This document shows positions 4,388-59,674 of a stretch of DNA of 64,000 nt, in pieces (the first letter of the stretch is position 1; every line of letters begins with the position of its first letter). The notes under the pieces were generated by a model. It was not told the origin of the DNA. It did no database searches and saw only the letters and a program-made list of their open reading frames with translations. The stretch spans positions 124,001 to 188,000 of the forward strand of contig NZ_AGAV01000014.1 of assembly GCF_000224785.1 (NCBI RefSeq), in the 5' to 3' direction. A program made the position numbers and the translations under genes. The DNA is from Lentibacillus jeotgali. GTDB lineage: Bacteria; Bacillota; Bacilli; Bacillales; Amphibacillaceae.

Positions 4388-4577
4388 TCCTTCAACCAGA
4401 AAGTTGCACACTTTTGTGAAACCGCATCCATACATTAAAAGTGCTTGCTTCGTGGGTGGTTTACCATCGTAAACACTCTCCAGAGCTGCGTCCTACAAGA
4501 GTCTCTTTGCCTGAGAGATTCACTGAATGTTTGCTCCTTCGGCGTTACTGCTCTGCTTAGCAGTAAGCTCTCCCCTT
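4385..4577 (-). promoter_or_regulatory. Tandem glycine riboswitch
   Basis: Two consecutive glycine-aptamer cores read on the minus strand. The first carries GGGGAGAGC, GCCGAAGGAGCAA and CTCTCAGGCAAAGAGAC; the second begins near CTCTGGAGAG and ends with TTGAAGGACAGAG. These are hallmarks of the class found ahead of gcvT in Bacillus, where ligand binding turns the operon on. The second aptamer is more divergent, with CACCCACGAAGCAAG in place of the usual CGAAGGGGCAA. The 4296-4722 gap is otherwise explained by this element and the divergent yqhH promoter region. Confidence 0.93.
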
Positions 4578-4722
4578 GTATTCATTCGCATCATGATATT
4601 TATGATTTTGGTTATACTATGTATGAGTCAGGAAAATACTAATATCTATATTACTTGCATTATATCACATGAACCATGCTAATAGTAGGGATAATCATAA
4701 CTTTGTGAAAAAGGAGTATACG

Positions 4723-27803: not shown

Positions 27804-27878
27804 AAAGTGAAACTTATCGGACATTTACGGACAATTATCCCCTGTTTTTCCGAAGATTAATGTCCATTACATGCGGAG
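27804..27878 (+). repeat. Family 1 repeat, truncated copy in the pst operon
   Basis: It begins with AAAGTGAAACTT, lacks the first hairpin, then continues ATCGGACATTTA, a hairpin with GGACA-TTATC arms, and CCATTACATGCGGAG. These blocks match the full copies at 47075 and 59486. Confidence 0.7.
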
Positions 27879-33841: not shown

Positions 33842-33914
<73 letters not shown>

Positions 33915-33974
33915 GTAGTATAATGTTGTTATTTCCCCTGTATGTTGCATCATGTCTTATTAGAATATTATGTA

Positions 33975-34067
33975 TGGAGGAGGTAGAGGGATTCGAACCC
34001 CCGCGCGGTTTGACCCGCCTGTCGGTTTTCAAGACCGATCCCTTCAGCCGGACTTGGGTATACCTCC
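33975..34067 (-). tRNA. tRNA-Ser (TGA)
   Basis: A 93-base tRNA with a long variable arm, the class II shape typical of Ser. The acceptor GGAGGTA pairs with TACCTCC. The anticodon loop is CTTGAAAA and CCA is encoded. Confidence 0.93.
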
Positions 34068-34076
34068 AAATATGAG

Positions 34077-34153
34077 TGGTGGACCCTGCAGGATTCGAAC
34101 CTGCGACCGATCGGTTATGAGCCGATAGCTCTGACCAGCTGAGCTAAGGGTCC
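34077..34153 (-). tRNA. tRNA-Ile2 (CAT, lysidine type)
   Basis: The acceptor GGACCCT pairs with AGGGTCC. The anticodon loop CTCATAA reads CAT. The body matches the tRNA-Ile2 family, whose C34 is changed to lysidine by TilS so that it reads ATA, and not the elongator Met tRNA found 200 bases away. CCA is encoded. Confidence 0.82.
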
Positions 34154-34181
34154 AATTTGATTAATAATGATGGTAAGGCTA

Positions 34182-34258
34182 TGGGGCGACCGGTGGGGTT
34201 CGAACCCACGCATGCCGGAGCCACAATCCGGTGCGTTAACCGCTTCGCCACGGCCGCC
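34182..34258 (-). tRNA. tRNA-His (GTG)
   Basis: Anticodon loop ATTGTGGC. A G at position -1 (34258) pairs with C73, the hallmark of tRNA-His. CCA is encoded. Confidence 0.93.
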
Positions 34259-34272
34259 ATTAATAGAAGTTA

Positions 34273-34349
34273 TGGTAGCGGCGGAGGGGATCGAACCCAC
34301 GACCTCACGGGTATGAACCGTACGCTCTCGCCAGCTGAGCTACGCCGCC
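34273..34349 (-). tRNA. tRNA-Met elongator (CAT)
   Basis: Acceptor GGCGGCG pairs with CGCCGCT-type 3' arm; the anticodon loop is TTCATAC. It resembles the B. subtilis elongator Met tRNA. CCA is encoded. Confidence 0.88.
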
Positions 34350-34352
34350 ATA

Positions 34353-34427
34353 TGGCTCCACAGGCAGGACTCGAACCTGCGACCGATCGGTTAACAGCCG
34401 ATTGCTCTACCACTGAGCTACTGTGGA
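34353..34427 (-). tRNA. tRNA-Asn (GTT)
   Basis: Acceptor TCCACAG pairs with CTGTGGA. The anticodon loop is CTGTTAA. CCA is encoded. It is first in the transcript. Confidence 0.93.
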
Positions 34428-38223: not shown

Positions 38224-38341
38224 AAAGTGAAACTTCATTCAGTGGGATGCTTTTCACCATTGAATGTTAGTTGGCCAGAATCGGGCATTTAGGGCTAGTT
38301 AGCCGCCGTTCCTTGGCGGGTTACTGGCCATTAGATGCGGG
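38224..38341 (+). repeat. Family 1 repeat, single copy
   Basis: AAAGTGAAACTTC, a first hairpin (CATTCAGTGG region), TTAGTTGGCCAGAATCGGGC, a second hairpin (GCTAGTTAGCCGCC and GGCGGGTTACTGGCC arms) and CCATTAGATGCGGG follow in the same order as the full copies. It fills most of the gap between the DUF4190-like gene and yqfT. Confidence 0.8.
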
Positions 38342-38376
38342 ATAATACACAATTATCATTTTTAAGGAGCAGATTT

Positions 38377-47074: not shown

Positions 47075-47264
47075 TAAATGCCCGAATTCGGTTCAACTAA
47101 CAATCAGCGGAGAAAAACACTCCGCTGATTGAAGTTTCTACTTTTCCCCGCATCTAATGGTCAGTATGCAGCCAAAAGACGGCTGCTGACTGACCTTAAA
47201 TGCCCGATTCGGTTCAACTAACAATCAGCGGAGAAAAACACTCCGCTGATTGAAGTTTCACTTT
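47075..47264 (-). repeat. Family 1 repeat, full two-hairpin-unit copy
   Basis: Read on the minus strand: AAAGTGAAACTTC; hairpin 1 with CAATCAGCGGAG and its complement; TTAGTTGAACCGAATCGGGC; hairpin 2 with GGTCAG and GCAGCC arms; CCATTAGATGCGGGG; then GAAACTTC, hairpin 1 and the TTAGTTGAACCG block again. The same layout and length occur at 59486. Its first bases contain the yqfL stop codon. Confidence 0.9.
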
Positions 47265-51886: not shown

Positions 51887-51936
51887 TAAAAAACCCCCGT
51901 CCCTATGCAAGTTCGATACCTGCATAGGGACGGGGT
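51887..51936 (-). terminator. T-box terminator
   Basis: CCCCGTCCCTATGCA and TGCATAGGGACGGGG pair around a short loop and are followed by TTTTTT on the minus strand. Confidence 0.92.
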
Positions 51937-52095
51937 TATCCGCGGTTCCACCCTATTTGCTCTTATGTAAGAGCCGCTTTATTCCAATTGCTCCGGAGCG
52001 CCATTCCTTATGTTCTGTTATCCGGCTTTCACCATCCCGGACTCGCTCGAAACAGCAGTCAATAAGTACTCCTCTCCATCAGCACAATATTTGCA
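51887..52095 (-). promoter_or_regulatory. Glycine T-box leader of glyQS
   Basis: The T-box core AGGGTGGAACCGCGG lies at 51940-51954. Upstream, Stem I shows GAGAGGAGTA and the GGGATGGTGAAAGCC apical loop. A GGC triplet in GAATGGCGCTCC (52002-52000) fits a glycine specifier. Uncharged tRNA-Gly should stabilise the antiterminator and allow glyQS transcription. Confidence 0.93.
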
Positions 52096-59485: not shown

Positions 59486-59674
59486 ATATGCCCGATTCTG
59501 TTCAACTAACAATCAGCAGCGAAAAAACGTCCCGCAGATTGAAGTTTCTACTTTTCCCCGCATCTAATGGTCAGTATGCAACCAAATTACGGCTGCTGAC
59601 TGACCCTAAATGCCCGATTCTGTTCAACTAACAATCAGCGGGGAAAAACGTCCCGCAGATTGAAGTTTCACTTT
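59486..59674 (-). repeat. Family 1 repeat, full copy between nfeD and floA
   Basis: It has the same order of blocks and the same 184-bp spacing as the copy at 47075, with about 90 percent identity by eye. Hairpin 2 keeps its pairing through changed bases. The nfeD stop codon is formed by its first bases (AAG TGA). Confidence 0.9.

Follow-up and report, generated by a model that had tools for sequence, protein, structure and literature searches.

A hairpin-rich tandem repeat of Lentibacillus jeotgali is probably a miniature mobile element, without terminal inverted repeats, that is widespread in Bacilli

What kind of element is the 190-bp, hairpin-rich feature at 47075–47264 that sits at the 3′ end of the ppsR-like gene of Lentibacillus jeotgali, and why does it repeat a part of itself? 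The feature lies in a 64,000-nucleotide stretch of DNA, the whole of which was analysed and is here called the window. Its basic unit of about 119 bp reads AAAGTGAAAC – hairpin 1 – linker – hairpin 2 – ATGCGGG and is flanked by ATAAA (TTTAT on the other strand). The complete unit runs along the minus strand from 47264 to 47146 and consists of AAAGTGAAACTTC, hairpin 1, the conserved linker GTTAGTTGAAC-GAATCGG, hairpin 2 with its GCAT/ATGC foot, and ATGCGGG; the bounds of the element are ATAAAGTGAAACTTC-hairpin at one end and GCGGGATAAA at the other. The 190-bp feature is a tandem pair whose second unit is truncated after the linker, in keeping with the minus-strand plan drawn from the sequence alone, namely a full unit followed by left end, hairpin 1 and spacer again. 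The duplicated 53 bp are 100% identical at a spacing of 121, the arms of hairpin 1 are complementary at 12 of 12 positions, and coding capacity is absent, as the same reading had held. The two ends are not inverted repeats of each other, with matches at 6 of 20 positions. Six copies or remnants lie within the 64-kb window, and their parts are as follows.

47146..47264, minus strand: full 119-bp unit, matched by the R1 covariance model at 142.1 bits
47258–48058, minus strand: ppsR-like gene, whose TGA stop (the ORF end) is supplied by the left end of the 47146..47264 unit
47075..47145, minus strand: right-truncated second unit of the tandem pair, with joint GGGGAAAAGTAGAAAC, recognised by the 53-bp direct repeat
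47222..47252, minus strand: hairpin 1 of the full unit (arms 47222–47233 and 47241–47252), from complementarity and family covariation
47101..47131, minus strand: hairpin 1 of the truncated unit, from the 53-bp direct repeat
47150..47203, minus strand: hairpin 2 including the GCAT/ATGC foot, from pairing and family covariation
59488..59674, minus strand: second array (full unit 59556–59674 plus a truncated unit), between presumed nfeD-like and SPFH/flotillin-like genes, from alignment and R1
38224..38342, plus strand: single full unit, R1 126.8 bits
51780..51883, plus strand: copy with a long hairpin 2 and no hairpin 1, followed by ATAAA, not among the R1 matches
27804..27878, plus strand: degenerate copy with hairpin 1 deleted and ATAAA on its left, R1 39.9 bits
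57443..57565, plus strand: degenerate copy with right end GCGGGATAAA, R1 33.2 bits

The names nfeD-like, SPFH/flotillin-like, primase and ComM-like are what we take these genes to be from their sequences, and the name ppsR is backed by a protein search of plasmid records. The window also holds six clustered tRNA genes on the minus strand (33842–34427), a T-box (51923–52091) and a glycine riboswitch (4489–4585).

The second array, which the sequence-only reading had placed near 59486, spans 59488–59674 (187 bp), follows the same plan and is 90% identical to the first over 188 aligned positions. The 1.5-unit plan would have arisen from two full units in tandem, by loss of the right end and most of hairpin 2 from the second; the truncated second units look like units with a collapsed hairpin 2, for example at 59488, where GGGCAT is followed directly by ATGC. 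Because the same unusual joint GGGGAAAAGTAGAAAC is common to the arrays at 47075–47264 and 59488–59674 and to a third genomic array (locus L005), the dimer may itself have moved as a whole. Other arrays in the loci fetched contain two or three full units, and neighbouring units have a joint in common, such as GCGGGATAAAGTGAAAC.

Genomes are designated here as G000 for the host (Lentibacillus group) and by other G numbers for its relatives, and fetched loci carry L numbers. A BLAST search of the host's own genome gives at least 41 matches (best 40 of 104 candidates scored), and the R1 covariance model, built from 27 of 28 listed units, gives at least 106 at E ≤ 0.001 (150 of 1505 candidates scored); with more matches in related genomes, the element is multi-copy well beyond the window. 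Hairpin 2 had been thought to be kept by paired changes between the two window arrays. A comparison of 37 of its bases in these copies reveals two loop changes and one C-to-T change on a single side, after which a G-T pair remains, and hence no paired change; it is across the family that the idea holds. Covariation among the 27 units is well above that of shuffled controls, with double changes in 14 of 33 pairs and 54 cells against 7.0 and 19.0 in shuffles; none of 500 shuffles reaches the observed 14 pairs or 54 cells, and slid partners give 2–5 pairs. Hairpin 1 continues past a tandem GA/GA mismatch, and pair 5-52, on the far side of it, covaries (TA 125, CG 22). The family occurs in two forms, with a short hairpin 2 (119 bp) or a long one (about 150 bp); in the distant genomes read, the long form is frequent and intermediate lengths are also present, and elements elsewhere measure about 120–155 bp. 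No curated Rfam model reaches its gathering score in a scan of the element, which speaks against identity with an Rfam family, and below gathering there is nothing convincing.

Comparison of orthologous sites indicates how the copies came to be where they are. At 59488–59674 the element is absent from G006, G008 and G004, where the alignment gap spans 15–38 bp as against 202–223 bp in the window, and the upstream protein, which ends REVK in the window, ends REMNT, REV or RAL in relatives (frames read by eye). At 47075, G006, whose ppsR protein is 95% identical to that of the window, reads ATGATAAAGTAA where the window has ATGATAAAGTGA plus the element, and the insertion has thus left the protein end unchanged. 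Inspection of 420 bases after the ppsR stop found the element absent from this place in the other ten genomes of the genus, and the 51780 copy is absent at its G008 ortholog. As both arrays are missing from the orthologous sites of relatives, the element is mobile. The G006 ortholog of the 47075 site contains the target ATAAA; at the 59488 site, ATAAA is present in G008 and not in G006. The left flanks carry T at −1 in 77 of 80 cases in G011 and 55 of 60 in G000, and AT before AAA in 61/80 and 38/60, respectively. A right-end ATAAA is found in 31 of 66 cases in G011 and only 7 of 42 in G000. We thus observe a multi-copy, patchy, mostly intergenic and mobile element that is often bounded by ATAAA on both sides and whose tandem units share a joint. 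In several relatives (L141–L144) the intergenic region 3′ of ppsR holds other, unrelated GC-rich repeats of the CCTCCTCG..GGAGTCT type (by eye), and this region may be a repeat hot spot.

The distribution of the element is broad and uneven. R1 matches occur in 21 of 40 genomes searched, the host's own included; within the host genus, to which G007 also belongs, G001, G009 and G010 have none, G005 has two and G011 at least 149 (150 candidates scored). Exact core matches occur in 19 stretches, and the organisms named there are Lentibacillus sp. CBA3610, L. salicampi, L. persicus, Oceanobacillus arenosus and Virgibacillus ndiopensis. A survey of the order finds matches in at least 86 of 299 genomes and at least 47 of 116 genera, and a survey of the class in at least 42 of 398 genomes, at least 30 of them outside the order; these counts are floors, as 12 and 9 candidates, respectively, were scored per genome under stricter filters. 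The left-end ATAAAG is kept in 18 of 20 copies from 20 genomes of the order, picked among the matches listed, and in 16 of 17 copies from 16 genomes of the class outside the order. A relative also resides on a Pseudalkalibacillus plasmid, and no record of the B. cereus group is among the plasmid matches. In plasmid record CP079755.1, which bears the label Klebsiella grimontii, a copy of Bacilli type with ATAAA at its ends lies in AT-rich surroundings (L219, 1495–1605), and we suspect that this record is mislabelled or contaminated. Two element queries found no match in phage records. An exact 19-base left-end pattern occurs in three stretches of viral contigs. L352 does not resemble a copy, and the other two do: L353 (IMGVR_UViG_2926488731_000002) holds a copy with a nested Bacillaceae-1 (by eye), and in L354 the copy is shortened between intact ends. 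Viral contigs are a possible route of spread for the element. Five 15–16-mers of the family were not found in the papers searched, where one 11-nt oligomer occurs only in four papers, unrelated by title.

The position of the copies relative to genes bears on a role in RNA, which the sequence-only reading had offered beside a MITE-like one. If the hairpins acted in the 3′ ends of mRNAs as stabilisers, attenuators or processing sites, copies would be kept for that purpose, and the strong covariation fits this reading, as does the report that in B. cereus 84/165 and 62/155 copies of all 18 bcr families are found in transcripts (PMC3446304). Both arrays of the window sit at gene 3′ ends. Among 67 distinct G000 arrays in 70 loci, a subset of the 106 matches with genes called heuristically, 64 are intergenic; 31 lie in sense between co-oriented genes, 13 in antisense, 13 in divergent and 8 in convergent contexts, and 2 are incomplete. 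A co-oriented upstream stop falls within −6 to +8 nt of the element start in 22 of the 67 (14 inside the element and 8 just before it), as against 15 of 274 intergenic ATAAA sites in the same loci, again as a reading in terms of RNA would have it. This excess is partly automatic, since the left end itself contains a TAA and, in a different frame, a TGA, and 14 of the 22 cases are explicable by the element's own left end supplying the stop. Without the 22 stop-abutting copies, the sense-to-antisense ratio in G000 falls from 31:13 to 16:13. The corresponding figures for G011 (−7 to +8) are 12 of 80 arrays against 25 of 313 intergenic ATAAA sites, and once copies nested in another repeat are excluded, arrays antisense to both genes (29) outnumber those in sense (15). 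With stops in two frames at its left end, the element does little harm when it inserts at the extreme 3′ end of a gene.

Base-pair statistics argue in the same direction. We tallied 162 distinct near-full units of 232 aligned matches, the rest having been dropped for gaps or identity. Watson-Crick combinations fill 4794 of 5289 pair cells; G·T accounts for 137 cells and A·C for 191, or for 134 and 139 once the outermost pair (62/115) is set aside, and there is thus no excess of G-U. Since G·U should be tolerated far better than A·C in an RNA made from the top strand, the conservation of the element looks DNA-level, and there is no sign of an RNA that acts from one strand. The earlier suggestion of an RNA-acting element thus fares badly, given the strand-symmetric wobble-type mismatches and the shrinking sense excess, and we consider it improbable. 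Its companion, the MITE-like description, stands as far as a small, non-coding, multi-copy and mobile element is concerned and fails for a classical MITE, which would have terminal inverted repeats. We conclude that the element is probably a non-autonomous miniature mobile element that lacks such repeats and is widespread in Bacilli.

How such an element moves is suggested by its orientation along the chromosome. With dnaA located in G007 and G011 (150 of 228 matches used, tandem units collapsed), the top strand runs against the replication fork in 66 G011 arrays and with it in 30 (n = 96, p = 3e-4), and G007 has 26 against and 11 with (n = 37, p = 0.02); GC skew agrees with the replichores of G011. 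Flanks were fetched for 80 of the 96 G011 arrays, 55 against the fork and 25 with it. Removal of 8 copies nested in another repeat leaves 53 against and 19 with (p = 7.6e-5), and removal of nested and stop-abutting copies leaves 45 and 15. With nested copies excluded, the ratio of against to with is 28:9 where genes run with the fork, 6:1 where they run against it and 15:9 in mixed contexts, four arrays being without one neighbour. The strata do not support gene orientation as the sole cause of the bias, although numbers outside gene-codirectional contexts are small (21:10, p = 0.07). The host genome, in seven contigs with replichores set by the GC skew of sampled loci, shows no replication bias, with 18 arrays with the fork and 13 against (9 and 13 without stop-abutting copies). 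Because G011 arrays mostly run against the fork, the bottom strand of the element is preferentially the lagging-strand template. According to PMC5371812, orientation follows replication in IS200/IS605, and such a bias is seen in other IS families too.

Since the G011 orientation follows replication, single-strand insertion of the IS200/IS605 kind is suggested. A trans-acting enzyme would recognise the two subterminal hairpins and insert the element at ATAAA; the moved strand, TTTAT|CCCGCAT – hairpin 2 – hairpin 1 – GTTTCAC|TTTAT, would enter the lagging-strand template as single-stranded DNA in the IS200/IS605 manner. We hold this mechanism to be plausible and put it forward tentatively. PATE-type elements are non-autonomous elements derived from IS200/IS605. 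The element resembles them in having no terminal inverted repeats, two subterminal hairpins, a short 5′ target and a fork-related orientation (in G011 and G007), and differs in that the richest genome has no resident Y1 transposase, no autonomous partner was found and ATAAA occurs on both sides. IS605-type insertion sequences of relatives end in a hairpin followed by AGTTCAC or GGTTCAC, and the bottom strand of the element in a hairpin followed by AAGTTTCAC; as autonomous partners they were rejected, as their ends differ save for the right end of hairpin plus GTTCAC. No autonomous copy with the ends of the element was found among the loci examined, and inspection of the sequence 5′ of the hairpin foot for a guide that would pair with TTTAT gave no convincing pairing rule.

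Matches to Y1_Tnp occur in 24 of 28 genomes searched. The richest genome, G011, has none at E ≤ 0.001, and copy number does not track Y1, which speaks against a resident Y1 transposase as mobiliser. The fetched Y1 loci (L031, L089–L117) contain no match to the element profile at E ≤ 1. The host has a single Y1_Tnp, encoded by a solo gene that lies behind the presumed ComM-like gene, on its downstream side, with no repeat beside it. The mobiliser would thus be a lost, foreign or unrecognised enzyme. The same observations weigh on a REP/BIME-like element mobilised by a RAYT (TnpA_REP), a reading for which high copy number, intergenic hairpins and the solo Y1 protein of the host could be adduced. 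The host's Y1 gene (the one genome inspected for this) lacks the flanking repeats of such a system, Y1 counts are unrelated to copy number as in G011, and inspection did not reveal a GTAG-type guide. Although intergenic high-copy hairpins are common to both, the units of the element stand in direct tandem arrays, exceed the 21–65 nt given for REPs in PMC6006769 and flank no RAYT. We regard this reading as very improbable and largely refuted. A third possibility is a site-specific (tyrosine or serine) recombinase with TTTAT as crossover core, as proposed for bcr1-type repeats; circles would integrate into an occupied site and so produce tandems. Direct ATAAA repeats at the ends, the lack of terminal inverted repeats and tandem units with a single joint (GCGGGATAAAGTGAAAC) are consistent with it; the fork bias is not predicted by it, unless folded single strands recombine. 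We judge a recombinase somewhat unlikely.

The element also takes part in nested arrangements with other repeats. Bacillaceae-1 (Rfam RF01690) lies between hairpin 1 and the linker in L119 (6200–6266), L122 (5868–5934), L123 (1984–2110) and L136 (1535–1661), and behind hairpin 1 with the linker missing in L135 (2738–2864); L121, the sixth locus scanned, has no RF01690 match. Of 30 loci fetched for RF01690, seven show it nested in the element (L191–L194, L196, L200, L218; by eye), and such nesting occurs in several genera. With 95 candidates scored per genome, RF01690 has at least 74 matches in G010 and at least 52 in G009, both of which are without R1 matches, one in G000 and none in G006. Both families are high-copy, patchy and hairpin-rich in Bacilli, and their sequences differ. 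RF01690 appears as a certain RNA in PMC2864571, and PMC4333381 describes its strand as uncertain and proposes CsrA binding; a literature search by name found, among the papers listed, no title or abstract opening that treats Bacillaceae-1 as a mobile repeat. In turn, the element is itself nested in another repeat at G011 loci L255, L257, L266, L267, L273, L278 and L289 and at G000 locus L009. Seven of the eight loci, all but L255, have GTGTTCAAAAAGGAGGAT or a closely similar sequence on the left; on the right the flanking sequence is similar to GGACCGAGAAGTTCGAGG, and several of the stretches extend to CTTTTTGAACAAC or its vicinity. From these flanks, element and outer repeat may together form a MITE-like composite with inverted ends.

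Where does the element belong among described repeats? In our judgement it falls into the known kind of small TTTAT-type non-autonomous repeats, and its range is broad. Of known repeats, bcr1 of the Bacillus cereus group comes closest and, by analogy, is likely a described relative. That repeat is TTTAT-associated, present in 11 to 130 copies per genome and restricted to the B. cereus group as described in PMC6542083, and PMC8725734 likewise calls bcr repeats specific to this group. It is listed among MITEs in PMC3733652 and as a stem-loop family of B. anthracis in PMC2267715; bcr1–bcr3 are termed similar to MITEs in PMC3446304, where only bcr3 is correlated with mRNA decay. Judged by description, bcr1 (group A of bcr1–bcr18) and the element are both small (roughly 150 bp), non-coding, interspersed, structured, mobile and high-copy. 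The TTTAT motif is shared, and in the element it is clear at left ends and weaker at right ends. The element spans many families of Bacilli, whereas bcr1 is reported only from the B. cereus group. An encompassing view would be that of a class-wide family without terminal inverted repeats that moves as single-stranded DNA at forks by a yet-unknown enzyme, carries Bacillaceae-1 as a second mobile module and includes bcr1 as a local branch; as a whole we find it doubtful.

By settling on stop codons, the element illustrates how operons can be entered by a parasite at low cost. Its nested Bacillaceae-1 copies suggest that this Rfam 'RNA', to which no function is assigned, may be a mobile module of DNA. 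Should the family prove to be one across Bacilli, bcr1 included, a supposed speciality of the B. cereus group would be a class-wide mobile element, whose mobiliser could be hunted by comparative genomics.
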